Shown here: in pieces, positions 9,219 through 32,885 of the stretch
Layout of the letters: every line of letters starts with the position of its first letter
How positions within the stretch are numbered: position 1 is the stretch's first letter
Assembly: GCA_017524185.1 (NCBI GenBank)
Contig: JAFWUG010000026.1
Span: 1 to 40,822 of the forward strand
Direction: 5' to 3'
Length of the DNA stretch: 40,822 bases
Origin: Bacteroidales bacterium
GTDB lineage: Bacteria; Bacteroidota; Bacteroidia; Bacteroidales; Tenuifilaceae
The notes under the pieces: model-generated
Databases searched by the model: none
The model's input: only the letters and a program-made list of their open reading frames with translations
What the model was told of the DNA's origin: nothing
Position numbers and translations under genes: made by a program

Positions 9219-9250
9219 CCATAGGCGTTCGCATGCAAGTGCGAACATAA

Positions 9251-9323
9251 GCGGGAATAGCTCAGTTGGTAGAGCATCAGCCTTCCAAGCTGAGGGTCGC
9301 GGGTTCGAGTCTCGTTTCCCGCT
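9251..9323 (+). tRNA. tRNA-Gly (anticodon TCC)
   Basis: A 73-base cloverleaf with acceptor GCGGGAA/TTCCCGC and anticodon stem TCAGC/GCTGA around CTTCCAA (anticodon TCC, 9284-9286). The D-arm is AGCTCAGTTGGTAGAGC and the T-arm GCGGGTTCGAGTCTCGT. Confidence 0.97.
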
Positions 9324-9334
9324 CTGCCTATCCT

Positions 9335-9406
<72 letters not shown>

Positions 9407-9459
9407 CAACTTCTTTTGTGTGTTAGCAACCAATTGAATATCAACTAAATACTCGAGTT

Positions 9460-10647
9460 ATGGCTAAAGAGAAATTTGATAGGTCGAAGCCGCATGTGAA
9501 CATCGGCACCATTGGCCACGTGGATCATGGTAAGACTACCCTAACCGCTGCAATCACCAAGGTGCTTGCCGAGAAGGGTCTGTCTGAGTTCCGTTCGTTC
9601 GACTCTATCGACAACGCGCCCGAGGAGAAGGAGCGCGGTATCACCATCAACACCGCTCACGTAGAGTACCAAACGGCTAACCGCCACTATGCACACGTTG
9701 ACTGCCCTGGCCACGCCGACTATGTAAAGAACATGGTTACTGGTGCTGCTCAGATGGACGGTGCTATTCTTGTTTGCGCAGCTACCGATGGTCCTATGCC
9801 TCAGACCCGCGAGCATATCCTGCTTGCCCGTCAGGTGAACGTACCCCGCATCGTGGTATTCCTCAACAAATGCGACATGGTTGAGGACGCTGAGATGCTC
9901 GACCTCGTTGAGATGGAGGTTCGCGAGCTCCTCAGCTTCTACAACTTCGATGGCGACAACGCTCCTATCATCAGGGGTTCTGCCCTTGGTGCCCTCAACG
10001 GCGAGGAGAAGTGGGTAGAGAAAATCATGGAGCTCATGGGTATTGTAGATGAGTACATTCCCATCCCTCCCCGCGACAATGAGAAGCCTTTCCTCATGCC
10101 TGTAGAGGACGTGTTCTCAATCACTGGTCGTGGTACTGTGGCTACCGGTCGTATCGAGACTGGCGTTATCCACACCTCTGACGAGGTTGAGATTGTAGGT
10201 CTCGACGATCAGAAACGCAAGTCGGTTGTTACTGGCGTTGAGATGTTCCGCAAGATTCTTGACCAAGGCGAGGCTGGCGATAACGTAGGTCTGCTGCTCC
10301 GTGGTATCGACAAGAAGGAGATCAAGCGCGGTATGGTAATTGCCAAGCCAGGTTCAATCACTCCTCACACCAAGTTCAAAGCCGAGATTTATGTGCTGAA
10401 GAAAGAGGAGGGTGGTCGTCACACGCCATTCCATAACAAGTATCGTCCTCAGTTCTACCTGCTTACTCTCGACGTAACCGGTGAGATTGAGTTGCCCGCA
10501 GGTGTAGAGATGGTAATGCCTGGTGATAACGTAACCATCACCGTAAACCTTATCTACCCTGTAGCTATCAACCAAGGTCTGCGCTTCGCTATCCGCGAGG
10601 GTGGTAGGACCGTTGGTGCAGGTCAGGTAATTGAGATTGTAGAGTAA
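9460..10647 (+). CDS. tuf: Translation elongation factor Tu
   Basis: EF-Tu is the GTPase that carries aminoacyl-tRNA to the ribosomal A site. The 395-residue length is normal. GTP-binding motifs are complete: P-loop GHVDHGKT (19-26), the switch I Thr in RGITIN (59-64), DCPGHADY (81-88) and NKCD (~136-139). Domain II ([13 protein letters not shown]) and domain III ([14 protein letters not shown], near the C-terminal third) follow. It lies 53 bases after tRNA-Thr(GGT) with no promoter or terminator between, so it is co-transcribed with the four tRNAs. The same tRNA order precedes tufB in E. coli (established knowledge). No truncation or unusual residue was seen. Confidence 0.99.
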
Positions 10648-10674
10648 TTAATTTAAAGGCATAAAACGCGAAGG

Positions 10675-10703
10675 GCCGGCTGGGTACAGCCCAGCTGGCT
10701 TTA
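10675..10703 (+). terminator. Hairpin between tuf and tRNA-Trp (partial terminator or processing site)
   Basis: The stem GCCGGCTGGG (10675-10684) pairs over ten bases with CCCAGCTGGC (10690-10699), with one G-T pair, followed only by TTTA. The short T-run and the tRNA starting at 10708 suggest an attenuator or RNA processing signal rather than a full stop. Confidence 0.5.
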
Positions 10704-10707
10704 GCAT

Positions 10708-10780
10708 ACGGGTGTAGCTCAGTTGGTAGAGCATCGGTCTCCAAAACCGAGTGTCGGGCGTTCGAGTCGCTCCTCCCGTG
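10708..10780 (+). tRNA. tRNA-Trp (anticodon CCA)
   Basis: A 73-base cloverleaf with anticodon stem TCGGT/ACCGA around CTCCAAA (anticodon CCA, 10741-10743) and discriminator G, as expected for tRNA-Trp. The acceptor stem ACGGGTG/CTCCCGT has one T-T mismatch at its sixth pair. It lies between tuf and secE, 17 bases before the secE start. Confidence 0.95.
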
Positions 10781-10797
10781 CAAATATTGTTGCAGAG

Positions 10798-10989
10798 ATG
10801 AAGATAGCCAATTATTTCCACGAGGTGTACAACGAAATGGTACACAAGGTGTCCTGGCCAACAATGAAAGAACTTCAGTCCAGCGCTTTAATTGTTATGA
10901 TTGCTTCCCTTTTAATCGCGCTGGTCATCTTCGTGATGGATATAAGTTTCGAGAACGTGATGAAGCTCATCTATCAAGTTTTGGGCTAA
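10798..10989 (+). CDS. secE: Preprotein translocase subunit SecE
   Basis: SecE is the small essential clamp subunit of the SecYEG export channel in the inner membrane. The product is 63 residues, the short single-span form common in this phylum. It has an amphipathic N-terminal helix (NYFHEVYNEMVHKVSWPTMKEL) with the hallmark VSWPT motif, followed by one membrane segment (~residues 25-45, ALIVMIASLLIALVIFVMD). An open frame extends upstream into tRNA-Trp, but the first ATG outside the tRNA, at 10798, gives the standard protein. The nusG start lies six bases after the stop, giving the classic secE-nusG pair. Confidence 0.96.
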   Translation: MKIANYFHEVYNEMVHKVSWPTMKELQSSALIVMIASLLIALVIFVMDISFENVMKLIYQVLG

Positions 10990-10995
10990 TCAGCA

Positions 10996-11565
10996 ATGGC
11001 AATAACACATACCACAATGGAGGATAATTCAAAAAAATGGTACGTGCTTAGGGCCATTGGCGGGAAGGAGAAGAAGGTGAAGGAGTATATTGAGGCGGAG
11101 GTAAACAATGCCCATCTCCAGCACCTGATTTCGCAAGTGCAGGTTCCTGTTGAGCGCATCTATCAGATGCGCAACGGCAAGAAAGTAAGCAAAGAGCGAA
11201 TCTCCTATCCAGGCTACGTGCTGGTTGAGGCCAGTTTGGTAGGCGAGGTGCCCCACATTCTCAGAAACATCCCCAACGTTATGGGCTTTCTGAACGATCC
11301 GCAAACGGGAAATCCCACACCAATGAGGCAATCGGAGGTGAATAGGATTCTTGGAAGGGTTGATGATTTGGCCGATAGCGAAGAGGAAATCAACATTCCG
11401 TACTGTGTCGGTGAGGCGGTGAAGGTGATTGACGGTCCGTTCAACTCATTCACTGGAATCATCGAGGAGGTAAACGAGGAAAAGAAGAAGCTGAAGGTTA
11501 TGGTGAAAATCTTCGGCCGTAAAACTCCGCTTGAGTTGAGTTTTACACAAGTAGAAAAGGAGTAA
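10996..11565 (+). CDS. nusG: Transcription termination/antitermination protein NusG
   Basis: NusG binds RNA polymerase, influences pausing and Rho termination, and couples transcription to translation. The 189-residue protein has the NGN domain (~15-125: [41 protein letters not shown]) and a C-terminal KOW domain (~135-189: [40 protein letters not shown]). A second in-frame ATG at 11017 ([10 protein letters not shown]) is an equally plausible start that would remove seven residues. The gene follows secE closely and precedes rplK, the conserved bacterial arrangement. Confidence 0.97.
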
Positions 11566-11593
11566 TAAACTTTAAAGAGCGCAAGCAAACACT

Positions 11594-12034
11594 ATGGCTA
11601 AAGAAATAGCTGGATTTATTAAGCTCCAGGTGAAGGGCGGTGCGGCTAACCCCTCGCCGCCTATAGGACCTGCTCTTGGCTCTAAGGGTGTAAACATCAT
11701 GGAGTTCTGCAAGCAGTTCAATGCCAGAACTCAGGACGAGGCGGGCAAAGTTTTGCCCGTAGTCATCACTGTTTACAGCGACAAGTCGTTCGATTTTGTT
11801 GTAAAAACCCCACCGGTTCCCGTACAGCTAAAGGAGTACTCCAAAGCAGCCAAAGGCTCAGCAGAGCCGAACAGGAAGAAAGTCGCTTCTGTTACGTGGG
11901 AGCAAGTTAGGGAAATAGCCCAGGACAAGATGCCCGATTTGAACTGTTTCACCATCGAGTCCGCTATGCGGATGGTGGCCGGAACGGCTCGTAGCATGGG
12001 TATAACTGTAACGGGCGAATCCCCATTGGTTTAA
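11594..12034 (+). CDS. rplK: 50S ribosomal protein L11
   Basis: L11 is part of the GTPase-associated centre at the base of the L7/L12 stalk. The 146-residue length is normal. The N-terminal domain has the Gly/Pro-rich [19 protein letters not shown] segment. The C-terminal rRNA-binding domain has the conserved [11 protein letters not shown] and [10 protein letters not shown] strings. It begins 28 bases after nusG and is co-transcribed with rplA. Confidence 0.98.
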
Positions 12035-12055
12035 CCTAAAAGCTTTTTTTACGCA

Positions 12056-12757
12056 ATGACCAAATTGACGAAAAACAGGAAGCTTGCTCTGACGAAAATC
12101 GAACCCAACAGGCAGTATAAGCTTAACGAGGCCGCTGCTCTGCTCAAGGAGATAACCTATACCAAGTTCGATGCATCGGTAGATATTGATGTACGCCTTG
12201 GTGTGGATCCCCGCAAATCGAACCAAATGGTTCGTGGCGTGGTATCTCTGCCCCACGGAACGGGCAAGCAGGTGCGCGTGCTGGTGCTGTGTACGCCCGA
12301 CAAGGAGGAGGCCGCCAAAGCGGCTGGTGCCGACTATGTTGGTCTCGATGAGTACATTGAGAAGATTAAAGGCGGCTGGACCGACATCGACGTAATCATC
12401 ACCATGCCTTCGGTTATGGGAAAGATTGGTGCGTTGGGTCGTATCCTTGGTCCCCGTGGTTTGATGCCAAACCCCAAGAGTGGCACCGTAACTATGGATG
12501 TGGACAAAGCTGTTAAGGAGGTAAAGCAGGGCAAGATAGACTTCAAGGTTGACAAGTTTGGCATCGTCCATACGTCAATCGGTAAGGTATCGTTCGATCC
12601 GGATAAGATCGTGGACAACGCTGTGGAGTTCATCAACACAATTGTGAAGTTGAAGCCCACTGCTGCTAAGGGTACGTATATCAAGAGCATATACCTATCC
12701 TCTACGATGAGCTTTGGTATTCCCGTTGACACCAAGTCGATCTCGGGAGCGAATTAA
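12056..12757 (+). CDS. rplA: 50S ribosomal protein L1
   Basis: L1 forms the mobile L1 stalk near the ribosomal E site and is a translational repressor of its own operon in well-studied bacteria. The 233-residue length is typical. Diagnostic strings include [46 protein letters not shown] and the C-terminal [15 protein letters not shown]. It starts 21 bases after rplK. I did not identify an L1-binding leader. Confidence 0.98.
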
Positions 12758-12781
12758 TGAACATTGAGAAGTTTTACCGCT

Positions 12782-13303
12782 ATGAGAAGGGAAGAGAAGA
12801 ACATCGTAATTGATAAGATAGCCGAGCAGATAAAGCAGTATCCCCATTTCTATCTCACCGACACGGCCGATTTGAACGCTGAGGCCACGAGTACCCTGCG
12901 CAGGGTATGCTTTGAGAAAGAGGTGAAGATGGTAGTGGTTAAGAACACGCTGCTGAAGTTGGCTCTGGAGCGTTCGGGCAAGGCCGATTTTTCGCCCCTG
13001 TACGACACGCTGAAGGGTTCCACTTCGATTATGTTTGCCGAGACGGGCAATGTACCCGCTAAGCTTATCAAGGAATTCCGCAAGAGCAGCGAGAAGCCTG
13101 TGCTGAAGGCTGCGTATGTTGAGGAGTCTATCTACGTAGGAGATGAGCAGCTTGAGGCTCTGGTAGCCCTCAAGAGCAAGAATGAGCTCATTGGAGATAT
13201 TGTTGCATTGCTGCAATCGCCGGCCAAGAATGTTGTTTCGGCACTACAGTCGGGCGGCAGCAAACTATCAGGCGTTATCAAAACGCTATCAGAAAGGGAG
13301 TAA
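12782..13303 (+). CDS. rplJ: 50S ribosomal protein L10
   Basis: L10 anchors the L7/L12 dimers of the ribosomal stalk. I place the start at the ATG at 12782 (MRREEKNIVIDKIAEQI), which gives 173 residues, the family norm. An upstream in-frame TTG at 12764 would add six residues and has no support. The conserved parts are the N-terminal rRNA-binding region (FYLTDTADLNAEATSTLRRVCF, VVVKNTLLKLAL) and the C-terminal helix that holds L7/L12. The rplA-rplJ gap is only 24 bases, so there is no room for the long rplJ leader known from E. coli. Regulation must differ or act elsewhere (inference). Confidence 0.96.
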   Translation: MRREEKNIVIDKIAEQIKQYPHFYLTDTADLNAEATSTLRRVCFEKEVKMVVVKNTLLKLALERSGKADFSPLYDTLKGSTSIMFAETGNVPAKLIKEFRKSSEKPVLKAAYVEESIYVGDEQLEALVALKSKNELIGDIVALLQSPAKNVVSALQSGGSKLSGVIKTLSERE

Positions 13304-13341
13304 TTTTTTTTAGTTCGAATCAATTCTAACACTTAATTACA

Positions 13342-13719
13342 ATGGCAGATCTTAAAAAATTTGCAGAGGATTTGGTAAACCTAACCGTTAAAGAGGTTAA
13401 CGAGTTGGCCCAGATTTTGAAAGACGAATACGGCATTGAGCCCGCTGCTGCAGCTGTAGCTGTAGCTGCTGCTCCTGCTGCTGGCGGTGGCGATGCTGCT
13501 GCTGAGAAGTCTTCGTTCGATGTTATCCTGACCTCGGCTGGTGGTGCCAAACTACAGGTTGTAAAACTTGTTAAGGAGCTCACTGGTCTAGGCCTGAAAG
13601 AGGCAAAGGACTTGGTTGACGGTGCACCCAAGCCTGTAAAGGAGGGCGTATCCAAGGAGGAGGCCGAGTCTCTGAAATCTAAACTAGAAGAGGCAGGAGC
13701 AGAAGTTGAACTTAAATAG
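13342..13719 (+). CDS. rplL: 50S ribosomal protein L7/L12
   Basis: This multi-copy stalk protein recruits and stimulates the translational GTPases. The 125 residues comprise an N-terminal dimerisation domain ([26 protein letters not shown]), a flexible Ala/Gly hinge (~35-53, [16 protein letters not shown]) and the C-terminal factor-binding domain ([31 protein letters not shown], then [18 protein letters not shown]). It lies 38 bases after rplJ and ends before a hairpin that may set the ratio of ribosomal protein to polymerase subunit transcripts. Confidence 0.98.
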
Positions 13720-13742
13720 CGTAAGCCTATATTAGGTACAAG

Positions 13743-13784
13743 GGTTTAGAGCCTAATTGAAAAAATTAGGTTCTAAGCCTTTTT
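13743..13784 (+). terminator. Hairpin/attenuator between rplL and rpoB
   Basis: A long stem GGTTTAGAGCCTAATT (from 13743) pairs with AATTAGGTTCTAAGCC (ending 13779) with few mismatches, around a short A-rich loop, followed by five T residues. It looks like a rho-independent terminator placed inside the operon. Partial termination between rplL and rpoB is known in E. coli and would explain less rpoBC than ribosomal protein mRNA here (inference). Confidence 0.8.
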
Positions 13785-13824
13785 ATTGTGTTTTATTTAG
13801 TTCAAACAAAAATCTCCACTTCCG

Positions 13825-16800
13825 ATGTCTCAGCCAAAAGAAAACCCCCGCATAATATTTTCTAAAACCAAGAGCCGGTATCAGTATCCCGACTTCTTGG
13901 AGGTGCAACTGCAATCGTTCAAGGAGTTCTTCCAGTTAGGCACCACGCCCGAGGAGCGTAAGAAAGAGGGACTCTATCAGGTGTTCCAGGACGTGTTTCC
14001 GATTACGGATACGCGCAACAACTATCAGCTGGAATTCCTCGACTACTACGTTGACCCCCCACGCTACTCGATTGAGGAGTGCTTGGATAGGGGCTTGAGC
14101 TACAATGTGCCGCTCAAGGCCAAGCTCAAACTCTCGTGCACCGACACCGAGCACGAGGATTTCGACACCGTGGTGCAGGACGTGTATCTGGGTGCAGTGC
14201 CCTATATGACGCCCAGCGGCACGTTTGTTATTAACGGCGCCGAGCGCGTTGTGGTGTCGCAGTTGCATAGGTCGCCTGGCGTATTCTTTGGTCAGAGCGT
14301 GCATGCCAATGGTTCCATGCTTTACTCAGCCCGTATAATCCCATTCAGGGGGGCGTGGATTGAGTTTGCTACGGACATTAACAATGTGATGTACGCCTAC
14401 ATCGATCGGAAGAAGAAATTGCCCGTAACCACTCTGCTGAGGGCTATCGGCTTTGAGAGCGATCAAGACATCTTGGAGATTTTTAACCTGGCCGACGAGG
14501 TTAAGGTGAATAGGGCCAATCTGAAAAAGGCCGTGGGCAAAAAATTGGCTGCCCGCGTGCTGCATTCGTGGATTGAGGATTTTGTGGACGAGGACACAGG
14601 CGAGGTGGTTTCCATCGAGCGTAATGAGGTTGTTTTTGAGCGCGAAACCGTAATTGAGGAAGATCAGATTGAGCAGATTTTGGATTCGGGCGTGAAGACC
14701 ATTCTGGTGCACAAGGAGAGCCAGAGCGTGTCGGACTTTGCCATAATCTACAATACGTTGCAGAAGGACACCTGCAATTCGGAGAAGGAGGCTGTGGCTC
14801 ACATCTATAGGCAGCTGCGCAGCTCGGAGCCGCCTGACGATGCAACCGCTCGCGATGTAATTGACAAGCTGTTCTTCTCCATCAAGCGTTACGACCTGGG
14901 CGGCGTGGGTCGTTACCGTATAAACAAGAAGCTCAAGTTGAAGAGCGATAAGGATGTGGACGATCCAGCCGTTAGGGTACTCTCGAAGGAGGACATCATC
15001 GAGATTATCAAGTATTTGATTGAGTTGGTGAATTCAAAGGCTGATGTGGACGACATCGACCACTTGAGCAACCGCCGCGTGCGCACTGTGGGCGAGCAGC
15101 TTGCTGCCCAGTTCTCGGTTGGTTTGACTCGCATGGCGCGTACCATCCGCGAGCGCATGAATGTTCGTGATAATGAGGTATTTACGCCCACCGAGTTGAT
15201 TAACTCCAAGACGCTGTCGTCGGTTATCAATTCGTTCTTTGGCACCAACCAGCTGTCACAGTTCATGGATCAGACCAACCCGCTGGCCGAGATGACGCAC
15301 AAGCGCCGTCTGTCGGCATTGGGTCCTGGCGGTCTGTCGCGCGAGCGTGCTGGTTTTGAGGTGCGCGACGTACACTATACGCACTACGGTCGTCTGTGCC
15401 CGATTGAGACCCCCGAGGGTCCTAATATCGGTCTGATTTCGTCGCTCTGCGTGTATGCCCGTATCAATGAGTTGGGCTTTATTGAAACCCCTTATCGCAA
15501 GGCCGATGCAGGTAAGGTGGGTATGACTAACACCGATGTGATTTACCTCACGGCCGAAGAGGAGGAGGCCAACATCATTGCGCAGGCCAACGCGCCGCTA
15601 TCTGATGATGGCAAATTTGTGAATCCTCGCGTAAAGGCGCGTTTGCGTGGTGATTTCCCGCTTTCGACGCCTGAGGAAATTAACCTGATGGACGTTGCTC
15701 CCAACCAGATTGCTTCGATTGCAGCTTCGCTGATTCCGTTCCTCGAGCACGATGATGCAAACCGTGCGCTGATGGGATCGAACATGATGCGTCAGGCTGT
15801 TCCGTTGCTCAAGCCTGAGGCTCCCATTGTGGGTACTGGTTTGGAGGAGGCCGTGGTTCGCGATAGCCGCGTACAGGTGGTGGCTAAGAAAGACGGTGTG
15901 GTTGAATATGCCGATGCAGATAAGATCATGGTTCGCTACGAAATGACCGACGACGAGCGTTTTGTTAGTTTTGAACCCGAGATAACCACCTACAATCTGC
16001 CCAAGTTTAAGAAAACCAACCAAAATACGTCAGTAACCCTGAAGCCCATAGTGCAGAAGGGGCAGAAGATAAAGGAGGGGCAAATACTCACCGAGGGCTA
16101 TTCGACGCAGGGCGGTGAGCTGGCTCTGGGACGTAACCTGAAAGTGGCTTTCATGCCATGGAAGGGCTACAACTTTGAGGATGCTATTGTAATCAGCGAG
16201 CGCCTATTGCGCGAGGATATGTTCACCTCGATTCATGTGGATGAGTATATACTTGAGGTGCGCGACACTAAGCGTGGTATGGAGGAGCTCACCGCCGATA
16301 TACCCAACGTGTCGGAGGAGGCTACCAAGGATTTGGACGAGAACGGTATGATTCGCATTGGCGCTAACATTGTGCCAGGCGACATACTGATTGGTAAGAT
16401 TACGCCCAAAGGCGAGTCGGATCCCACTCCCGAGGAGAAACTGCTCCGCGCCATATTTGGCGATAAGGCTGGTGATGTTAAGGATGCGTCGCTAAAGGCT
16501 ACGCCGTCGCTCTATGGTGTGGTGATTGACAAGATGCTGTTCTCACGCGCCATAAAGGATGAGACGTCGAAGAAGGGCAAGGGCAAAAACTCTGACAAGC
16601 AGCAGGTTGAGTTGCTTGAGGTTGAATTTGCTCGTAATGTGAATGCCCTGCATGTTACGTTGGTTGAGAAACTCAATTCGCTGGTGGGGAACAAGACCTC
16701 GCAGGGGGTTGTGGATAATCTGGGTGGTGTTGTTGTGCCACGTAGCGTGAAGTTTACGCAGAAAATACTGCAAGAGATTGACTACATGAATGTCAATCCG

Positions 16801-17667
16801 AACAAGTGGACAACCGATAAGGCTAAGAACGAGTTGATCAAACAGCTCATTCTGAACTATATAATGAAGTGGAAGGAGTATGATGCCGAGCATAAGCGTA
16901 AGAAGTTCAATCTAACCATAGGCGACGAGCTTCCCACGGGTATCATGCAGCTGGCCAAGGTTTATATCGCTAAGAAGCGCAAGATTAAGGTTGGCGATAA
17001 GATGGCTGGTCGCCACGGAAACAAGGGTATTGTGGCCAAGATTGTGCGCGACGAGGATATGCCATTCCTCGATGATGGTACGCCAGTGGATATTGTGCTG
17101 AACCCGCTGGGTGTGCCTTCGCGTATGAACTTGGGTCAGATTTATGAAACGGTGTTGGGTCATGCCGGTATGAAGTTGGGCTTAACCTTCGGTACGCCAA
17201 TTTTCGATGGTGCATCGCTTGAGGATATCTGCGAGTACAGCGACAAGGCCGGTTTGCCCCGCTACGGCAAGACCTATCTCTACGATGGCGGCACTGGCGA
17301 GCGTTTCGACCAACCGGCCACTGTTGGTGTGATTTACATGTTGAAGTTAGGTCACATGGTTGACGACAAGATGCACGCCCGCTCCATTGGTCCCTACTCG
17401 CTCATCACGCAGCAGCCGTTGGGCGGTAAGGCGCAGTTCGGTGGTCAGCGTTTCGGTGAGATGGAGGTGTGGGCACTGGAGGCATTCGGTGCATCGCACA
17501 TCCTGCAAGAGATATTGACCCTAAAATCGGACGATGTGGTGGGCCGAGCCAAAGCCTATGAGGCCATAGTTAAGGGCGATGCCATGCCACAGGCTGGTAT
17601 TCCTGAGTCGCTCAACGTGCTGCTGCACGAGCTGCGCGGCCTTGGTCTAAGCATCAGCCTCGACTAA
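13825..17667 (+). CDS. rpoB: DNA-directed RNA polymerase beta subunit
   Basis: The beta subunit forms half of the catalytic cleft of RNA polymerase. The 1,280-residue length is normal for Bacteroidales. Conserved segments run in order: [26 protein letters not shown], the rifampicin-binding cluster ([19 protein letters not shown] then [18 protein letters not shown]), [50 protein letters not shown], and the C-terminal [22 protein letters not shown]. The rifampicin cluster carries the ordinary residues at the usual resistance positions (Asp, His, Arg, Ser, Leu), so it looks wild type. It follows rplL by ~105 bases across the attenuator and precedes rpoC by 48 bases. Confidence 0.99.
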
Positions 17668-17715
17668 TTAAAAGGATACGTTTTCGCAATATAACCACTT
17701 AAACATTCAGACAAT

Positions 17716-22011
<4,296 letters not shown>

Positions 22012-22506: not shown

Positions 22507-25500
22507 ATGATTAGACGTTACGCTTTAACAATGTTCTTGCTTGTGCTAAGCCTTTATGGGCTCAACGCGCAGCAGGTGCTCAAACTGGGGTCGGGCAATC
22601 TGACCCTGGAGGACAACGTGGGCGTGCGCGGCAGGGCTTTGCCCGTGTCCGCTGCTAACCACGCGCAGCTTATGGTGCTACGATTCGATAATCTGCCCAC
22701 AGCGAAGCAGAAAGCCGAATTGCGCAGGCAGGGCATAGAGTTGCACTCGTATATTAGCCACAATTTGTACTATGCTACGGTGAAGGGCAATCCGGTCGAG
22801 GTTCTGCCAGCAATGCGCGGTATGCGTAGCGCAATGCCTGGTGTGCGTCAGGCCAATGTGGTGGATCCGCTTTGGAAGATTAATCCAGAGGTTAGCAGCG
22901 GGCGTATTCCCGAATGGGCGAAGGGAAGCAGGGCCAGTGAGGCACGCATGGTTGTTGAGTTTTTCAAGGGTATGGATGCAAAGTTAGCCGCTAAGCAGTT
23001 GGCTGATAACGGCATACGAGTGTTGAAAATGATGGACAAATTTCGCATGGCCGAGGTGGAGATGCCTGTAGATAAAGCTCTTCGGGTAGCAGCATTCGAC
23101 TGGGTGCGTTTGGTTGGCTTTGTGCCGCCGCCTGTGGAACCCGAAAATGCCGAGTCACGCACAATATCTCGTTCTAACCTGCTTTCGCAGCCCGTCAATT
23201 TAGGCGGTTATGGCCTTACTGGTAGGGGACAGGATGTTGGACTTTGGGACGGTTCGGTAGAGCCTCATCCCGACTTCGGTAACCGTTTGGTTACCCATGA
23301 GTTTGAGTATAACAGTTCTCATGGTCAGCATACCGCTGGAACGTTGGCTGGTGCTGGCATACTCGACCCACGCGCAAAGGGCATGGCTCCTGAGGCCACC
23401 CTGCATACCTGGAATTTCAACACGCAGAGCAATGGGCTAAGTGTACCAGAAGAGATGCTTATTTCGGCACGCGACTACAACGTGCGCCTTACCTCAAACT
23501 CATACGGAGTTTATATGACCAGCAATGGTCAAGATCGTTGGTGTGTGAACAAATATCCATACACATCGTCGGATGCGATGCACGATATGATGACCAACGA
23601 GTTGTATCCCGACTTGTTGCATATTTTTTCGGGAGGCAACGACCAAGATGCCTGCTTGAATTTTACGAACTCTCGCTACGAAACCTCCACCAAGCGTGTG
23701 AAAAACTCCATATTGGTGGGTGCTTTGCAGGAGGATGGCAGCATGTCGAGCTATAGCAGCTGGGGACCAATGAACGATGGTCGTATGCTGCCGCATATAT
23801 CGGTGAGCGGGTCGAACACGTTCTCGACTGTGTATGGTATGAAGTACGAGGACGGCTGGAACGGAACATCGATGGCTTGCCCCGCAGCAGCAGGTACTAT
23901 GACGCTGCTATATCAGCTCTATGAGCAAATACATGGCGAGAAACCGTTGGCCGCATTGGCTAAGGCCATTATGCTTAACAGCGGCCACGACCGTGGCAAT
24001 GTGGGTCCCGACTATCAGTACGGTTTTGGTGTGCTCGATGGTCTGCGCTCGGCGCGTATGATTGAGCGCAAGCAGCATTTTGTGGATGCTGTTGAACATG
24101 GCGATTCCGTAAAGTTTAGCATCAATGTGCCTGCTGGTACAGTGGAGTTGCGTGTGATGTTGGTGTGGAGCGATGTGGCTGCAGCCGAAAATGCCAAGCC
24201 TGCATTGGTCAACGACCTCGACCTCACAGTGGTGCATAACGGCAATAGCTATTTGCCATGGTTGCTTAACCCTAAATATCCCGAAAATCCTGCCCTAAAG
24301 GGTTACGACCGTTTGAACAATCAAGAGCAGGTTACCATTACAAATCCTGCGGCAGGCACCTATACCATTAAGGTTAATGGCTATGCAGTACCCGAGGGGC
24401 CACAGCAATTTGCGATTGCCTACGATTGCTATAGCGCAGGTGTGGAACTTACCTATCCCAATGGAGATGAGGCTTTTGCGCCTAATGCTAAGGTTTTGGC
24501 AAGATGGAACACTGATGGTCTTCAAGAGCCTATCAGCATTGATATTAGCACCGATGGTGGTGTAACATTCAGCACATTGCTGTCGAATGTGCCAGCCAAC
24601 CAAACCGAAGCTATTGTTACTATGCCCGATGTGGCTACCGATAAGGCTATGATGCGCATTCGCCAAGGGTCGCACAGCGACATCAGCAATGCCGCGTTTG
24701 TTATCATGGGTGTGCCGCAGAACCTCAAAGTTAGCATGGCTACTCCATGCGATGCCAGCAGCTTTCAGTTGGTGTGGAACAGCGTGCCTGGTGCTGCACA
24801 ATATGCCGTGTTTAAGGCAGATGAGGCCAAGGCTGCCTACAACGAAATAGGTCGTGTGAGCGATACTATTTTTAGCCTACCTGCCATGGGCAATGAGCGC
24901 AATTTATATAGCGTGGTGGCTATAAGTGCCAGCGGAGTAGCAGGAGAGCGTTCGGTTGCCGCTGTGGCCACTCCCTCGCATCCTCTAAATCTAACAACGC
25001 TGCCTTTCGAGGAGAATTTTGAGAATTTCTTGTCGCCATACGTATCGATTATTTTAGGCGAACACACCACTCAAGATTATTTGGGCATGATGTACGAGGC
25101 ATCGCCCGCTCAGATGGTGGTGTTCTATGGAACGGGCAAAAACGCCCAGTGGAATGGCACAGGCAACCTTTTCGACGAGAATCCAAGCTGTGTGGCTAAG
25201 GCTCAAATTTGCAATATTGACGCAACTTCGGTTGAAGGCAATTTGTGGTTGAGCATGGCGACTATAGTTGAGCGTTCGCCAAACAACACCGCTGCCTTTA
25301 GGGTTGTGGTGAATGGCACGGATGTGATTGCCGACAATCTCGACCGTAGTAGCGTTTCGCAGCTCGACCAAGGCTATAGCTACTACAATCTATCGGCCTA
25401 CGCGGGTACGGTGTTCTCTGTGAGCATTGAGGCTGTACTTCGCACCGAAGAAGACGCCGCTGCCTTTGGCTATCTCAAGATTTGGCAGCCCGAAACCGAT

Positions 25501-28500
25501 TTGGAGATGGTGCGTGTACAAATGCCAGAATCACCAATTGCTGGCACCAGCGCACCGCTGTCTATCGTAGTTTATAACAATAGTCCACAGAAACTTATCA
25601 ACATTCCTGTGCGTTATAGCGCTAATGGGGGTGAATTCGTTTCCGAACTTGTGGCTGGGCCTGTGTTCCCATTCGATACCATGTTCTATACCTTTGAGCA
25701 TGATGTAGAGCTGGCTGAAGTTGATGTGCTTTACAACATAGAGGTCGAGGTGTTGAACGTAGCAGACAAAAATCCTGCTAACAACAAGGCTGTAGTGCGC
25801 TCGTTCCGTAATGGCAGCGATTACACGCAGATGCTTTGCGGAGTGAGCAACGTAAGGCTCACCGCCACAAGCACCCCGCAGTATTTCACCGACAACGGCG
25901 GTAGGTTGGGCGACTATGCCAATGAGTGCAATAGCGCAATCACCATTACCACCGAAAATGTAGGTAAGAAAATACAACTGCGTGTGATGGAGTGCGATAT
26001 AGAGGAGGATTGGGATTACTTATACCTACATGATGGCAATAGTGCCGACTCTGCTCTGTTGTTCGAACTTACGGGCAGCAACCTGATAACGCTGCAATCG
26101 ACCAATGGCAACGATACCTCTTATAGCAGCATCTATGCGCGTTTTGTGTCGGATAAAAATACCGTTGGAGCAGGCTTTTTGATTGAGTATGTGGAGGTGG
26201 ATGCAACCGCCAGCGAAAATACATTCGCTCTGCTAAGCATCGAGAACGAACCCACCGACTATACCGAGGCCAAGCCTGTGGTTATTAAAATACAGAACAA
26301 CAGTACAACGGACCAGGAAAATGTAGGGGTACGCTACCGCATTGGCGATGGTGATTGGAACGAGGAAACCATAGCCACGCTGCCTGTGGGCGAAAGCACT
26401 CACACCTTTGCTAAGGAAATGAAGCTAAAGAAAGAGGAGTTCTCGTTTAGCTTGACAGCCGAGATATTGAACTCCGATGATATGCCTGGCGACAATATCA
26501 AGAAGAAGACTCTGTACAACGATATATATTGTGTGCCTGTAAATAACACTAACACCTCATCAGCATCGGGGTTGTATGTAAAAAGCATTGCCAGCCACGA
26601 TGTATCGTTCACCATGCAGAGTGTTCCGCGCTATGTGCTAACCGAAACCCGCAGCACTTTACTGCCTGTTTATGTAGATTATGCGGCGAATAAAATTGAG
26701 GTTACGCTGCCCCGTGCGGTAGTTAATGGCCAAGTGGGATTGTGGATTGACTGGGACAAAGATTTTGCGTTCGACGATGCCGAGGGCATAGTGAAGGATA
26801 TGACCGTAGGTACGGTAAAATATGCCTTTGATATTGATGCTTCTGCACGCGAAGAGGGCGTGTACAACATGCGTGTGCGTGTAGGCTCATTTGCCGTTAC
26901 CCCCTGCGCCGATGCTGTGGCCGATGGCCAGATTGGTCAGACTGTAGATTTTAGCCTTGAGGTAAAAAGTGGTTATCAATATTTTGCTGATATTGAGGTT
27001 GTTGATATAATTGCTCAGTCGGGCTTGAATCTTGGTGGTGCAGAGGAGGTTAGCGTTGTGCTGATAAATAGAGGCAATAAGGCCGCTGAAAATATCAGCC
27101 TAAAGTTGGTTGTGGATGGTGCTGAACTTACAGGCGTTACGGGCGAAAATGTAGCACAAATTGCGGCTAACGATACAATAACTTATGTCTTTGCTGCTAC
27201 AGCCGATTTGTCGGCTTTTGGCAATCACACCATTGAGGTGATTTCTTCGATGTCTGACGACGATAATCCGTTCAACAACAGCAAACAGGTGGTTGTTATA
27301 CATACACAGCCTGCTGCCACAGGCGAGTCGTGGATGCTCAGCTTCGATGGTAAGGACGATGTGGTGAACGCTGGTACGCTCAACGGAGCCAACCTGCAGT
27401 CGTTTACCTACGAGGCGTGGATTAACCCCAACTCGTGCGGTGGCTACGGTGCGGGCGCACCTGGCTTTGGCCGCGTGTTCGAGGGCAAGGGGCTTACCCT
27501 CTTCGCCAACGGATTAGCCACATCGACGTTCTACCCCATGAACTGCTTCGTGGTGAGCATAGACAATGGAGGTTCATATTGCACCGCCGCCGAAACTTTC
27601 AAGATTGGCCAATGGCAGCATATTGCCGTAAGCCACGACAGCGCTACCCATGAGGTAAAAATTTACATCAATGGGCAGCAGGTTTGGGATAGCACCCGCA
27701 CGGCGGTTACAGCAGTGGCCAACAATGCCGCCAACAATCTGCTGATAGGCAACGGAGCCAGCGGCGACCGTCAGTTCGATGGGAAGATCGACAACGCCCG
27801 CGTGTGGCGCATCGTGCGCACCGCCAGCGAAATCGCCGCCGACATGAACACCGCTACCTCGCTCAGCGGCACCAAAGGGCTAGTGGCCGAATTCCTCTTC
27901 AACGAGGGTGTGCGCACTAACACTGTAATTAACACTGCCGATGGTAGCACTGCATCTATCCTTAACGCCTATTGCGATGAGGGCGAGCAGTCGATATGGC
28001 AGCGCTACGACGTGCTGAGTTCGTTTGCTGTTGAGGGACAAGTTGCTGAGTGGCAGCAAACTGGAAGCAATAGCTTTATTGCCGAGGTGGAGAGCGGCTA
28101 CGATATAGCTGCGCTGGTGCCTGTGTTCGCTACGAAGTTTGACACTGCCAAGGTTTACGCTAACAGCACTTTAATCACATCAGGAAACAGCTATGTCGAT
28201 TTTAGCAGTCCTGTAGATATAGTAGTTACGCACACACATTTAGGCGAGGATATTGTGGAGAATTACACCTTTGCTATAGCCAGCCAGTGTGTGCTGCAAT
28301 CGTTTGAACTACCCGCTGCTGGCATTAGCCTAAGTGCGCCCATGCCCTCTGTTATTGAAATTGAGGTTGATGGCGCAGTCGATGCCTTGGCTACCAACTT
28401 TGTGCTTTCGGGCGTTGGCTCGGTGCTTATCAACGGACAGCCCCAAAACAGCGGTGTTGTGGTGGACTATACTAATCCTGTTATCATAGAGGTGATTGGC

Positions 28501-31500
28501 ACAAGCGGTATGGTTAATGCTACATATACGGTATTGGTTAAGCAGTCGCAGACCATTAGTTGGGGTAGCATGGCCACCAACTACACCTATGGCGACCCCT
28601 CGTTTGCGCTCGCTGCCACTTCGTCAACGGGTGCACGCCTCGCCTACGAGTCGAGCAATACCGAGGCTATCGACATCAATGGTGGTAGGGCTTACATTGT
28701 GGGTGCTGGTACGGCTACCATCACCGCACGCCAATTGGGCGGACAATGCCTAAAGCCCAGTGCTGCTGCCGAAACGCGTACAATCAGCGTGGCCAAGGCT
28801 CAGCTCCACATCTATGCCGACACATTTAGCATAGACCAGAGTGCCCAGCTGCCTGAACTCACCATGAGCTTCAGCGGCTTTGTGAACGGCGATGATGCCT
28901 CTAAGCTCGATGTGCTGCCTACCGCGACCACCGATGCCGAGGCGGGCGTTGCTGGCCAATACACCATCACCCTCGAGGGCGGCTCCGATGCCAACTACGA
29001 CTACGTGCTGCACTCTGCTCCGCTCACCATCAAGCCCTATGAGATGTACGCGCTCACCATTGGCGTAATGGGCAATGGTGCAGTGGTTGATGGTGCAAGC
29101 ATCGAGGTTAATGGCCTTACTCTCAGCACCGATGCAAATGGCAAGGCCAGCACAACGTTGCCCGTAGGCAAATACGCCTACAGGGTAAGCAGCGTGGGCT
29201 TTGAGCCATACGCCGATACGGTAATCCTCAAAGCCGATGTGTCGGTGAATGTGTCGCTGCGTGCTGCGCAGTACATCCCCATCACCTACACCACCGATGG
29301 AAATGGTACGCTGCTCGATGCCAAAGGCATTGTAATCGAGCCGCAGCTAATTGTTCCAGGCCAAAACACCATGCCCGTGCAGGTACGTGCGCACAATGGC
29401 TACAACTTTGTGCGGTGGAGCGATGGTAGCACCGACAATCCCCGTCAGGACTACAACATCACCGCCCCCGCCACATATACTGCCGAGTTTGCAATAAAGA
29501 CTTTTACGGTTAATTATACGGCAGGCGAGGGTGGTAGCATCAGCGGACAAGCTACGCAAACAGTTGATTTCGGACAATCGGGCACGGAGGTAACTGCCGT
29601 GGCTGATGTAGGCTATATCTTCAAGCAGTGGAACGATGGAAAAACGAACCCCACCCGTTCTGATTTGCCTGTGGATAACATGACTGTAAAAGCAGAATTT
29701 GATAAGGTGTATGCCGTACCTTATACTCAAACTTTTGATGATGACGTAGTGCCTGCATATTGGGAAACTGTAAATAATTCAGGTGCATATGCGGAGTGGA
29801 CTTTTGCCCCCAATGCAGTTTCAAACGTAAGTGGTTTAGGCACTTATACGCTAAAAGGATCAACCCCCAACTGTGCTGTGCTTAATGATTTTGACTATAA
29901 GGGTGGAGCTAATACGAACGCTGATCTTGTAACGCCTCTTTTTGATTTTACTAATCTTCGTGAGGTTACAGTTAAGTTCAATCACTATCATTATAATAGA
30001 TGGTCTGCAGGTACTCCAGTATCTACCATATCATTTTATTATAGCGTAAATGGTGGAGATTGGAATCTTATAGAGCAGTGGCAGGGCTCAAATAATAACC
30101 CAACTGAATTTAAATGGACAACCCAATCGGCAGATATATGTGATAAGAATTATGTGAGGTTTAAATTCAAGTTTGTTAATATTATACACAAGTTGGCCTC
30201 GTCCTATGCAGGTGATGCCTGTTGGATAGTTGATGATTTTAGTGTAACAGGCGTTCCGAATGCCGACAGCTACACCGTTACCTATCGCGCTGGCAAGGGC
30301 GGTAGTTTGCAGAGTGCTAATGTTAATGCCGAGGGTGTGGTTGCTGAAGTAGTGGCTGATGGCGGCAATGGTCCCAGCGTTACCGCTGTACCTGATGTAG
30401 GATATGTGTTTAGCGGATGGAGCGATGGCAGTACTGTTAATCCGCGCCAAGATGTGGTGAGCAAGCCTATTGACGTAATAGCCTTGTTTGCACGTGAATG
30501 TAGTATTCCTATAACAACACTCCCCTGGCAGTATAGCTTTGAGCAGGGATTGCCCGATTGCTGGGCTACCACGGCCAATGTAGGCGGAAATGCAAAATAT
30601 GGTTGGTCCTTTGAGGACAATCAAGCAGAGTTCTACTATATGGGAACTGGTCTTGCCGATGGTACGCTAACCTCGCCGCTGTTCGACCTCTCTGCGGTAG
30701 CAGGCGAAGATGTTTATGTGTCGTTTAAAAGTTTGTTCTTCAACTATAATTCGTATGATGAAGATGTGTACTTTGAGTATTCCGATGATGATGGCGCAAG
30801 CTGGAATCAGTTATGGATATGTGATAGAACAGCTGAGCCATATTTTGTATCTGGAGCGAATAAGTATTTCTTGGATACTGTTTTAGTCCAATTGCCCACG
30901 GTAACTAACACCATGCGTTTCCGCTGGACATTTATGGGCTACACGGCAGGGGATGTGGCTGGTTATTGGGACGTATCTGATATAGAGATAACTACCAGCA
31001 GCATGGGCTTAATCGAGTACACCAGCAACGACGATGGTCGCTACTATCTTGGCCAAATTGCCTACAATGGCCAGCGCAATGCTAAGATTAGGGCAATTGA
31101 TGCTATTGGCTCTGACATCACTGTGGAGGCTATTCCCTACGTTGGATACCACTTCCATAGCTGGAACGATGGCAATAAAGATGCTCTGCGTACCGATCGG
31201 GTTACTGCAACTCCGCAAGCGTTTGAAGCCGAGTTCGTTATCGATACCTTCCAGTTCACCTATAGCGTTGATGCAAATGGAGCGCTTACTATGAACGATG
31301 TGAATGAAGTTACGCACATTCAGAGCATTGTTTACAAGGGCAGTGGTGTAGCTGTTAAGGCCACACCCGACGATGGCTATAAGTTTGTGCGCTGGAGCGA
31401 TGGACGCACCGACAACCCCCGCATCGATACCGATGTGAGAAAGGACAGCACCGTTGTGGCCGAGTTTGCCGCGCTTCGCACGTTCAATATTGCAGCCACA

Positions 31501-32586
31501 GCTACCCCAGCCGAGTATGGCGAGGTAACAGGCGAGGGTAGCTACCTTGAGGGTGAAATGGTAACCCTTAACGCTACGGCCAAAGATGGTAGCGCGTTTG
31601 TGCGCTGGACCAGCAATGGCGTAACGGTATCCACCGCAAATCCCTTCACCTTTGTGGCAACGTCCGATAGCTCGCTGGTGGCCGAGTTTGATGTGGCTCA
31701 GTTCAACCTCATCTACTCCGCAACCATGGGCGGCTACATCGATGGCCAAGCCCGTCAGACTATCAGCTATGGTCAGGATGGCACCACGGTTGAGGCTAAG
31801 GCTGTTGAGGGTTACGGCTACCATTTTGTGCAATGGAACGATGGCCTCACCGAGACTACTCGCACCAGCACCAATGTGATTGCCAACCAACTATTTGAGG
31901 CACAGTTTGAACTCAATAGCTATGAGCTGAACTATGCAGCCGATGCCAACGGCTCTATCAGCGGCGAGGCTACGCAAACCGTTGTACACGGTAAGTCGGG
32001 CTCTATGGTTGAGGCCGTAGCCAACCAGGGCTACGAGTTTAAGCAGTGGAGCGATGGTAGCACAGTCAATCCCCGCACCGATGTAAATGTGCAGGGCGAT
32101 ATGGACGTTGCTGCCATCTTCGAGCCAGTCATCTACCAGTTCAGCATTCAGGTGCTCGATAAAGATGCTAAGCCAGTATCGGGTGCTAAGGTTACGGTTG
32201 GAAACAACAGTCCTAAAACAACCGATGCCAATGGCTACGCTATCGACAGCGTTGCTATGGGCAAGCACAAGGTTGTGGTACAGAAAGCTAACTTTGTTGA
32301 CGCAACCTACGAGTACGAGGTGGTTAGCGACACGTTAGTCAAGGTGGTGCTGAACCATACTGGTCTGCGTGGCGTTGAGTTGGAAACGCTTGCCGTTTCC
32401 CCCAACCCAACCGTTGGGGCGGTGCAGATCGAGGCCACTGGCGAGGTGTTGGTTTACAACCTTGTTGGACAGCTGCTACAGCGCGTACCGTCCCAGGGCA
32501 AGGTGCTGATAGACCTCAGCAACTACCCCGCAGGCACATACATCGTCCGCGTGGGCAATGCCGCTGCAAGGGTGATTAAGCAGTAA
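22507..32586 (+). CDS. Giant T9SS-secreted subtilisin-like (S8) serine protease with many adhesion-type domains
   Basis: A 3,359-residue modular protein. In order: a Sec signal peptide (1-22, ending LNAQ); a propeptide-like region (~23-200); an S8 protease domain (~205-530) with an intact triad Asp248 (GLWDGS), His272 (SHGQHTAG), Ser455 (NGTSMACP) and oxyanion Asn378 (SGGNDQ); a C-terminal beta domain with VNDLDL (~540-640); an Ig-like domain (PNGDE, ~645-728); an FN3-like domain (~735-822); CARDB-like domains; a CUB-like domain (~1110-1232); GEVED (GLWIDWDKDFAFDD, ~1345-1488); LamG-like (~1605-1815); an MBG-like domain (~2095-2180); a carboxypeptidase-D regulatory-like domain (~2182-2260); and eight InlB-like repeats interleaved with two jelly-roll (choice-of-anchor) domains (~2258-3205). 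It ends in a type A T9SS sorting domain (~3290-3359; AVSPNPTVGAV, YNLVGQLLQ, LSNYPAGTYIVRV). It should be exported by Sec, then T9SS, and attached to or released from the surface. The substrate is unknown. Confidence 0.95.
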   Translation: MIRRYALTMFLLVLSLYGLNAQQVLKLGSGNLTLEDNVGVRGRALPVSAANHAQLMVLRFDNLPTAKQKAELRRQGIELHSYISHNLYYATVKGNPVEVLPAMRGMRSAMPGVRQANVVDPLWKINPEVSSGRIPEWAKGSRASEARMVVEFFKGMDAKLAAKQLADNGIRVLKMMDKFRMAEVEMPVDKALRVAAFDWVRLVGFVPPPVEPENAESRTISRSNLLSQPVNLGGYGLTGRGQDVGLWDGSVEPHPDFGNRLVTHEFEYNSSHGQHTAGTLAGAGILDPRAKGMAPEATLHTWNFNTQSNGLSVPEEMLISARDYNVRLTSNSYGVYMTSNGQDRWCVNKYPYTSSDAMHDMMTNELYPDLLHIFSGGNDQDACLNFTNSRYETSTKRVKNSILVGALQEDGSMSSYSSWGPMNDGRMLPHISVSGSNTFSTVYGMKYEDGWNGTSMACPAAAGTMTLLYQLYEQIHGEKPLAALAKAIMLNSGHDRGNVGPDYQYGFGVLDGLRSARMIERKQHFVDAVEHGDSVKFSINVPAGTVELRVMLVWSDVAAAENAKPALVNDLDLTVVHNGNSYLPWLLNPKYPENPALKGYDRLNNQEQVTITNPAAGTYTIKVNGYAVPEGPQQFAIAYDCYSAGVELTYPNGDEAFAPNAKVLARWNTDGLQEPISIDISTDGGVTFSTLLSNVPANQTEAIVTMPDVATDKAMMRIRQGSHSDISNAAFVIMGVPQNLKVSMATPCDASSFQLVWNSVPGAAQYAVFKADEAKAAYNEIGRVSDTIFSLPAMGNERNLYSVVAISASGVAGERSVAAVATPSHPLNLTTLPFEENFENFLSPYVSIILGEHTTQDYLGMMYEASPAQMVVFYGTGKNAQWNGTGNLFDENPSCVAKAQICNIDATSVEGNLWLSMATIVERSPNNTAAFRVVVNGTDVIADNLDRSSVSQLDQGYSYYNLSAYAGTVFSVSIEAVLRTEEDAAAFGYLKIWQPETDLEMVRVQMPESPIAGTSAPLSIVVYNNSPQKLINIPVRYSANGGEFVSELVAGPVFPFDTMFYTFEHDVELAEVDVLYNIEVEVLNVADKNPANNKAVVRSFRNGSDYTQMLCGVSNVRLTATSTPQYFTDNGGRLGDYANECNSAITITTENVGKKIQLRVMECDIEEDWDYLYLHDGNSADSALLFELTGSNLITLQSTNGNDTSYSSIYARFVSDKNTVGAGFLIEYVEVDATASENTFALLSIENEPTDYTEAKPVVIKIQNNSTTDQENVGVRYRIGDGDWNEETIATLPVGESTHTFAKEMKLKKEEFSFSLTAEILNSDDMPGDNIKKKTLYNDIYCVPVNNTNTSSASGLYVKSIASHDVSFTMQSVPRYVLTETRSTLLPVYVDYAANKIEVTLPRAVVNGQVGLWIDWDKDFAFDDAEGIVKDMTVGTVKYAFDIDASAREEGVYNMRVRVGSFAVTPCADAVADGQIGQTVDFSLEVKSGYQYFADIEVVDIIAQSGLNLGGAEEVSVVLINRGNKAAENISLKLVVDGAELTGVTGENVAQIAANDTITYVFAATADLSAFGNHTIEVISSMSDDDNPFNNSKQVVVIHTQPAATGESWMLSFDGKDDVVNAGTLNGANLQSFTYEAWINPNSCGGYGAGAPGFGRVFEGKGLTLFANGLATSTFYPMNCFVVSIDNGGSYCTAAETFKIGQWQHIAVSHDSATHEVKIYINGQQVWDSTRTAVTAVANNAANNLLIGNGASGDRQFDGKIDNARVWRIVRTASEIAADMNTATSLSGTKGLVAEFLFNEGVRTNTVINTADGSTASILNAYCDEGEQSIWQRYDVLSSFAVEGQVAEWQQTGSNSFIAEVESGYDIAALVPVFATKFDTAKVYANSTLITSGNSYVDFSSPVDIVVTHTHLGEDIVENYTFAIASQCVLQSFELPAAGISLSAPMPSVIEIEVDGAVDALATNFVLSGVGSVLINGQPQNSGVVVDYTNPVIIEVIGTSGMVNATYTVLVKQSQTISWGSMATNYTYGDPSFALAATSSTGARLAYESSNTEAIDINGGRAYIVGAGTATITARQLGGQCLKPSAAAETRTISVAKAQLHIYADTFSIDQSAQLPELTMSFSGFVNGDDASKLDVLPTATTDAEAGVAGQYTITLEGGSDANYDYVLHSAPLTIKPYEMYALTIGVMGNGAVVDGASIEVNGLTLSTDANGKASTTLPVGKYAYRVSSVGFEPYADTVILKADVSVNVSLRAAQYIPITYTTDGNGTLLDAKGIVIEPQLIVPGQNTMPVQVRAHNGYNFVRWSDGSTDNPRQDYNITAPATYTAEFAIKTFTVNYTAGEGGSISGQATQTVDFGQSGTEVTAVADVGYIFKQWNDGKTNPTRSDLPVDNMTVKAEFDKVYAVPYTQTFDDDVVPAYWETVNNSGAYAEWTFAPNAVSNVSGLGTYTLKGSTPNCAVLNDFDYKGGANTNADLVTPLFDFTNLREVTVKFNHYHYNRWSAGTPVSTISFYYSVNGGDWNLIEQWQGSNNNPTEFKWTTQSADICDKNYVRFKFKFVNIIHKLASSYAGDACWIVDDFSVTGVPNADSYTVTYRAGKGGSLQSANVNAEGVVAEVVADGGNGPSVTAVPDVGYVFSGWSDGSTVNPRQDVVSKPIDVIALFARECSIPITTLPWQYSFEQGLPDCWATTANVGGNAKYGWSFEDNQAEFYYMGTGLADGTLTSPLFDLSAVAGEDVYVSFKSLFFNYNSYDEDVYFEYSDDDGASWNQLWICDRTAEPYFVSGANKYFLDTVLVQLPTVTNTMRFRWTFMGYTAGDVAGYWDVSDIEITTSSMGLIEYTSNDDGRYYLGQIAYNGQRNAKIRAIDAIGSDITVEAIPYVGYHFHSWNDGNKDALRTDRVTATPQAFEAEFVIDTFQFTYSVDANGALTMNDVNEVTHIQSIVYKGSGVAVKATPDDGYKFVRWSDGRTDNPRIDTDVRKDSTVVAEFAALRTFNIAATATPAEYGEVTGEGSYLEGEMVTLNATAKDGSAFVRWTSNGVTVSTANPFTFVATSDSSLVAEFDVAQFNLIYSATMGGYIDGQARQTISYGQDGTTVEAKAVEGYGYHFVQWNDGLTETTRTSTNVIANQLFEAQFELNSYELNYAADANGSISGEATQTVVHGKSGSMVEAVANQGYEFKQWSDGSTVNPRTDVNVQGDMDVAAIFEPVIYQFSIQVLDKDAKPVSGAKVTVGNNSPKTTDANGYAIDSVAMGKHKVVVQKANFVDATYEYEVVSDTLVKVVLNHTGLRGVELETLAVSPNPTVGAVQIEATGEVLVYNLVGQLLQRVPSQGKVLIDLSNYPAGTYIVRVGNAAARVIKQ
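29281..32133 (+). repeat. Eight InlB-type repeats at the C-terminal side of the giant protease
   Basis: Degenerate repeats of ~70 residues share the signature F-x-x-W-x-D-G-x-x-x-x-x-R-x-D. Examples are FVRWSDGSTDNPRQD, FKQWNDGKTNPTRSD, FSGWSDGSTVNPRQD, FHSWNDGNKDALRTD, FVRWSDGRTDNPRID, FVQWNDGLTETTRTS and FKQWSDGSTVNPRTD, plus one divergent copy (FVRWTSNG). Two jelly-roll insertions at ~29710-30255 and ~30500-31000 split the array. Such repeats are known as divergent InlB B-repeats in extracellular proteins and usually act as stalks or adhesion modules. Confidence 0.85.
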
Positions 32587-32660: not shown

Positions 32661-32807
32661 CGTGGTGGCGAAGAGAACCTCGTCGCATTTAAATTGTTCG
32701 CATGTGGGCACTCCTGCTACTGCATATTGATTTTATGGGTGCGTGGTTATGTTATATCTTCCAACCGTTCCCCCCCTCAAGACCATTAAACAACTGCTGA
32801 AAATCGA

Positions 32808-32840
32808 CCAACGGCAAATTTTTGCCAACCAACGGCAAAT
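32808..32840. promoter_or_regulatory. Direct repeat CCAACGGCAAAT, two copies two helical turns apart
   Basis: Identical 12-base copies lie at 32808-32819 and 32829-32840, starting exactly 21 bases apart, so both face the same side of the helix. The sequence between them forms GGCAAATTTTTGCC (32813-32826), an inverted repeat. Placement ~140 bases before the start of the second giant gene suggests a regulator binding site, but this is inference. Confidence 0.4.
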
Positions 32841-32885
32841 GCTCGCCAGATGTTGGTTTGCTTGTGGTGGTGTGGTAGCGTTGGG

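Follow-up and report, generated by a model that had tools for sequence, protein, structure and literature searches.

The window analysed here is a stretch of 40,822 nt (positions 1-40,822 of the forward strand of contig JAFWUG010000026.1, GenBank assembly GCA_017524185.1) from a Bacteroidales bacterium of the Tenuifilaceae, whose draft genome consists of 2.52 Mb in 174 contigs with 97.6% completeness. It contains an uninterrupted orf of 3359 codons that encodes a long-stalked subtilase with a T9SS sorting domain. Upstream (9031-22011) are tRNA genes for Thr, Tyr, Gly and Thr, a tRNA-Trp gene, frames that resemble ribosomal proteins, rpoB and rpoC in size and order. The orthologue of another genome of the same genus occupies the same place after rpoC, but the linkage is limited to the genus: the neighbours are different in two other genera (L034 and L033) and in Balneicella halophila. 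In L034 (2572-4353) and L033 (11389-13113) the upstream gene encodes a TPR-type protein that weakly resembles BT3442-family and FimS-like regulators and is possibly a co-inherited regulator. On the 3′ side of the window subtilase gene, an orf that is open at the contig end (32977-40821, + strand; at least 2,615 aa) encodes another giant surface protein, in which numerous InlB-type repeats accompany BspA-type LRR_5. An operon of the two genes was considered and rejected, as genome G001 has a DNA polymerase III alpha gene there on the opposite strand. In the intergenic region past the protease gene, a 21-bp sequence occurs twice as a direct repeat (32807-32848). A Bacteroidetes-type promoter was also rejected, the pattern having one match in the window, as expected by chance, and not upstream of the subtilase gene. 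The features of the subtilase gene are listed below, with residue numbers and the basis of each assignment in parentheses.

22507-32586, + strand: long-stalked T9SS subtilase orf (uninterrupted, 3359 aa)
22507-22569, + strand: hydrophobic N-terminal stretch, likely Sec signal peptide (1-21; by eye from the translation)
22570-23145, + strand: propeptide (22-213; AlphaFold2 secondary structure)
23146-24429, + strand: mature protease unit of KP-43 type, subtilase plus C-terminal jelly roll (214-641; fold match, Pfam)
23248-23250, + strand: catalytic Asp248 (present in 24 of the 25 rows of the family alignment)
23320-23322, + strand: catalytic His272 in SHGQH (aligned to KP-43 H68; kept in 24 of 25 rows)
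23638-23640, + strand: oxyanion Asn378 in GGND (family alignment)
23869-23871, + strand: catalytic Ser455 in NGTSMACP (aligned to KP-43 S255; family alignment)
24427-25506, + strand: Ig-like, FN3-like and jelly-roll-like modules, approximate (641-1000; orthologue comparison)
25921-26190, + strand: CUB (1139-1228; 18.4 bits against a cut-off of 21.4)
26734-26958, + strand: GEVED (1410-1484; PF20009, 30.9 bits)
26989-27243, + strand: CARDB (1495-1579; PF07705, 20.8 bits, just under the cut-off)
27346-27837, + strand: LamG, concanavalin-like lectin fold (1614-1777; PF13385, 83.2 bits)
27877-28791, + strand: conserved stretch (1791-2095; 29-63% identity in orthologues)
28807-29028, + strand: MBG_2 module (2101-2174; PF18676, 41.9 bits)
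29074-29256, + strand: CarboxypepD_reg module 1 (2190-2250; PF13620)
29341-29703, + strand: InlB-type repeats 1-2 (2279-2399; PF18998, own HMM)
29707-30231, + strand: jelly-roll-like module A (2401-2575; by eye, the F5_F8_type_C match having an E-value of merely 0.25)
30343-30492, + strand: InlB-type repeat 3 (2613-2662; own HMM)
30748-30990, + strand: Reelin-B/MAM-like jelly roll B (2748-2828; PF21471, 32.8 bits)
31099-32124, + strand: InlB-type repeats 4-8, length-variable array (2865-3206; PF18998/PF09479)
32146-32328, + strand: CarboxypepD_reg module 2 (3214-3274; PF13620, 28.1 bits)
32398-32577, + strand: T9SS type A sorting domain (3298-3357; PF18962, 33.7 bits, and TIGR04183, 30.9 bits, both over cut-off)

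The order of modules is probable signal peptide, propeptide of ~190 residues, KP-43-type subtilase, Ig/FN3-like modules, jelly roll, CUB, GEVED, CARDB, LamG, MBG and eight InlB-type repeats, with the T9SS type A sorting domain last. Profiles that score over their Pfam cut-offs are S8 (102.8 bits), Laminin_G_3 (83.2), Flg_new_2 (209.6), MBG_2 (41.9), GEVED (30.9) and Por_Secre_tail (33.7). The original prediction of an intact protease combined with a train of CUB, GEVED, LamG, MBG and InlB-like modules is borne out by the single orf and the Pfam profiles, and its observation of this layout is right, beyond chance. CUB is below threshold in the window copy and over the cut-off in four collinear orthologues (33.3 bits in the same genus; 39.6, 30.1 and 31.5 bits in three other genera). 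The modules overlooked at first were the PPC jelly roll, two CarboxypepD_reg modules, CARDB, the Reelin-B/MAM-like jelly roll, and a probable sister of the latter between InlB repeats. The estimate that the protease makes up about one tenth of the protein holds for the S8 domain (~290 of 3359 residues), but the mature unit homologous to KP-43 (214-641) makes up 13%.

Asp248, His272, Asn378 and Ser455, predicted to form an intact set, are each found at that number in the translation, and the catalytic triad is retained in 24 of 25 relatives in the family alignment. The protease unit matches PF00082 (102.8 bits) and, at residues 535-625, PF04151 (PPC; 26.2 bits); by phmmer, residues 263-638 match KP-43 (PDB 1wmd) with an E-value of 2e-22, and the alignment that pairs His272 with H68 and Ser455 with S255 has an E-value of 2e-23. 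An AlphaFold model of residues 22-660 built from nine sequences (pLDDT 71.5, loops of low confidence) aligns with the 1wmd chain 1-434 with a Z-score of 42.5, an rmsd of 2.4 Å over 383 residues and 30% identity (VIA-align). Because the model superposes on the entire 434-residue chain of KP-43, comprising protease and jelly roll, the mature enzyme is expected to span residues ~214-641. The triad with its oxyanion Asn and the jelly roll that follows the protease place the unit in the KP-43 subfamily, and the window protease is predicted to be an active-type, KP-43-like enzyme. Four Chitinophagaceae relatives (L010, L011, L013 and L014; orfs of 827-966 aa), in which Glu replaces the catalytic Asp and the Ser region is altered, look like inactive subtilases that have retained the NNQEQVTI jelly roll.

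The propeptide has no Pfam match in a profile search with the window subtilase. In the AlphaFold2 model it looks like two beta-alpha-beta-beta-alpha-beta units in tandem (residues 54-118 and 145-205; window 22666-23121), and a profile comparison of its halves gave a weak likeness (P = 0.0013, versus 0.07-0.44 for five control stretches).

Between the protease and the sorting domain, residues 641-1000 of the window copy have no significant Pfam match; they are 38-65% identical to the five orthologues, and there is a KRE9/KNH Ig match at the equivalent place in L034. Residues 1791-2095 likewise have no significant Pfam match. Across genera, LamG is the best kept (42-50% identity) of the core modules that lie between the FN3-like module and MBG. 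In every orthologue, jelly-roll-like module A follows InlB repeat 2 and precedes repeat 3, both of which are fixed. The structure model of residues 827-1800, which include the CUB-LamG region, was built with Balneicella as sole partner and has a pLDDT of 41. Two other classifications were rejected: the protein is not a periscope protein, as its InlB repeats are merely ~60-73% alike in DNA and no tandem array was found there, and it is not an internalin, as no LRR family matches its 3359 residues at E ≤ 1.

Five collinear orthologues were identified: one from the same genus (3375 aa, 72% identical in the protease), three from other genera of the window's family (L034, L033 and L035), and one from the cultured Balneicella halophila (L007/L047; 4479 aa), which belongs to the same order, Bacteroidales. 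They align with ~2,830 residues of the window protein with few gaps, and those from the other genera and Balneicella have equal modules at nearly equal residue numbers, except that Pfam reports no CUB for the Balneicella orthologue. As far as residue 2400, and leaving aside the signal peptide and the N-terminal half of the propeptide, the modules have hardly any gaps (0-6%; in Balneicella up to 17%); the two jelly rolls have ~12%. Because genomes of other genera and of Balneicella halophila, assembled separately, show the same full-length order, the proposal that an assembly or frame artefact fused two genes, which could be raised for a draft of 174 contigs in which two paralogues run off contig ends, is refuted and has a negligible probability. 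The original prediction also named no protein with this order and called for a domain-architecture search; a reading of the order as singular falls with at least five orthologues that include a cultured species, as the order recurs in all five and the core in shorter relatives. The window subtilase is a member of a conserved Bacteroidales family, which represents a known kind of protease in a variant with a long stalk.

Conservation is uneven along the protein. In the five orthologues, identity to the window protein is 52-77% in the protease and 42-67% in LamG, and lower in most other modules; across genera it is 52-62% in the protease, 50-56% in its jelly roll, 51-60% in one InlB repeat, 46-52% in MBG, 42-50% in LamG and 23-44% in most remaining modules. 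That the protease is the best conserved part, with its triad present in 24 of 25 relatives, unlike the Asp-less Chitinophagaceae relatives, argues against a protein that is mainly an adhesin and whose protease domain matures just itself or neighbouring surface proteins. We regard this alternative as quite improbable, even though binding and stalk-type domains account for most of the mass, two jelly rolls lie within the InlB region, and a section heading of the report on Bergeyella cardium describes reciprocal cleavage of SpBcA and SpBcB, two T9SS peptidases of the KP-43 subfamily (PMC11982257).

The first three InlB repeats are constant across the orthologues, whereas the last array changes in number: the window protein (eight repeats) and its orthologues have 8, 8, 7, 6, at least 6 (open at a contig end) and 24. 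A phylum sample of 395 genomes, of which 13 (window genome counted) encode related T9SS subtilases, yielded three proteins of 2,300 aa from one genus of the window's class (L062-L064). Together with G023, from the window's own family, they can be aligned with the window protein as far as residue ~2016, beyond which they have a different short tail without InlB. The S8-CUB-GEVED-LamG core is thus common to InlB-free relatives of ~2,300 aa; outside the window's family, Balneicella alone has the full core among 393 genomes of the order, with at most two candidates scored per genome. In a maximum likelihood tree of the protease region, from which rows truncated at contig ends were excluded, a single branch (support 96/95; present in 98% of bootstrap trees) separates the eight InlB-bearing proteins from the others, and therefore the InlB stalk was probably gained once, by an older S8-CUB-GEVED-LamG protein. 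The window genome has two paralogues (G000:C64 and G000:C13, 61% and 42% identical in the protease), each truncated at a contig end, and its genus mate has four such protease genes, indicating that the proteases multiplied in the genus. A short paralogue form, considered for frames of 1071 and 1281 aa, was rejected because both run off contig ends.

A T9SS sorting domain at the C-terminus was correctly predicted: both PF18962 and TIGR04183 score over their cut-offs, and the window genome encodes PorU (1197.6 bits) and PorV (385.8 bits) ~0.2 kb apart on the same contig, as well as 36 loci with type A C-terminal domains (CTDs) over the cut-off. The sorting domain and PorU/PorV identify the window protein as probable type A cargo with predicted export. 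At its C-terminus the Balneicella orthologue has a T9SS type B domain instead (L047 13971-14267; TIGR04131, 33.4 bits, slightly below the cut-off of 35), so that, going by this match, the sorting signal is swapped while the remainder is collinear. Type B CTDs are proposed to be anchored through PorP/SprF (PMC10202324); no PorP/SprF was found in four neighbouring frames examined beside this orthologue.

Type A cargo is both retained and released, and a significant subset of T9SS cargo is released (PMC10202324). Flavobacterium columnare, a fish-associated species, encodes a look-alike of 2135 aa (C6N29_05315, PTD13902.1) with S8, CUB, Laminin_G_3 and a type A CTD, which is present in the culture fluid of the wild type, whereas a gldN mutant secretes it poorly or not at all; it was deleted within a chain of peptidase mutants, and the stepwise CTD peptidase deletions mostly gave partial loss of extracellular proteolysis (PMC9936825). 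The presence of the look-alike in the medium argues for release over display, at least in that species, and on this analogy release of the window protease may be as possible as display. Accordingly, the window protein might be a soluble digestive protease, freed by PorU as a whole or as a protease fragment, whose C-terminal domains merely aid binding to particulate substrates. This account seems rather unlikely to us, since a variable InlB spacer beside the sorting domain is most readily understood in a protein whose C-terminus is fixed, and since the Balneicella orthologue carries a CTD of the class proposed to be PorP/SprF-anchored (PMC10202324).

From the exported-protease relatives and the precedent of fibrillar enzymes, the best explanation, which we consider fairly probable, is that the window protein is a self-activating subtilase of KP-43 type that is exported by the T9SS, built as a "fibrillar enzyme" and docked by its CUB-GEVED-LamG core. 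The Sec system would deliver a latent zymogen to the periplasm, the C-terminal type A domain would pass it through the T9SS, and PorU would cut off this domain, with the protein joined to the surface or released. The propeptide would be cleaved near residue 213, leaving the catalytic unit at the distal tip of a chain of twenty-odd small domains, most of them beta. The CUB-GEVED-CARDB-LamG core beside the protease would probably dock the enzyme on a substrate that is a protein or glycoprotein. The InlB array, closest to the cell, would be a spacer, the length of which is set by each lineage. Activity, cleavage site, docking role and surface retention are all inferred here. The original interpretation, a protease displayed far from the cell surface or tethered to a specific polymer, is supported in part, by the active-type protease, by the T9SS tail with its machinery and by a spacer-like InlB region that varies behind a fixed front; the tether to a specific polymer may be a further possibility. 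Unlikely, in our estimate, is a more specific version in which an undescribed family of Bacteroidales surface proteases uses a fixed lectin-like core of CUB, GEVED and LamG to select one glycoprotein, and the InlB array as a ruler, tuned in each lineage, for the distance that the protease extends past a capsule or S-layer.

In several genera belonging to two families, an architecture of ~2,800 residues is constant and change is confined to the spacer by the sorting domain; even the sorting domain appears exchangeable, being type A in the window protein and type B in Balneicella. The orthologues therefore constitute a natural series in which to study the contribution of a stalk to a surface enzyme, and the export by the T9SS of cargo that measures 2,300 to 4,500 residues.

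Several known systems resemble parts of this protein. By domain content, C6N29_05315 of F. columnare has the set of the 2297-aa InlB-free relatives; it is ~1,200 aa shorter than the window protein, and no InlB array is listed for it. SpBcA and SpBcB of B. cardium are described as active, self-cleaving zymogens of the KP-43 subfamily secreted by the T9SS, and SpBcA as having an inhibitory, non-I9 propeptide removed by self-cleavage (PMC11982257). They share with the window protein the KP-43-type S8 protease, the non-I9 propeptide and the T9SS CTD, but they are short and have PKD/cleaved-adhesin or choice-of-anchor-J domains instead of CUB-GEVED-LamG-InlB. KP-43 (1wmd) and SubHal (5fax) have the same combination of protease and C-terminal jelly roll (Z-score of 42 over the whole chain), but they are free Bacillus enzymes without extra domains or a T9SS tail. 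In Gram-positive bacteria, the cell-envelope proteinases SpyCEP, C5a peptidase and CspA parallel the proposed mode of action, as they carry an S8 protease on a multidomain stalk that is fixed at its C-terminus. Such proteinases are also among the sequence and fold matches of the window protease, but they differ in having Fn-type stalks and sortase anchoring and in falling outside the KP-43 subfamily. The term "fibrillar enzymes" has been applied to catalytic domains on Flg_new stalks, such as C6CUY3 (PMC9210967). The likeness consists of a catalytic head, a stalk of Flg_new/InlB type and an anchor; C6CUY3 has another catalytic head, and a T9SS tail is not described for it in the portion of the source used here (PMC9210967). 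With an enzyme, repeated stalk domains and a sorting region in one chain, the window protein has each of the parts by which a fibrillar enzyme is defined.
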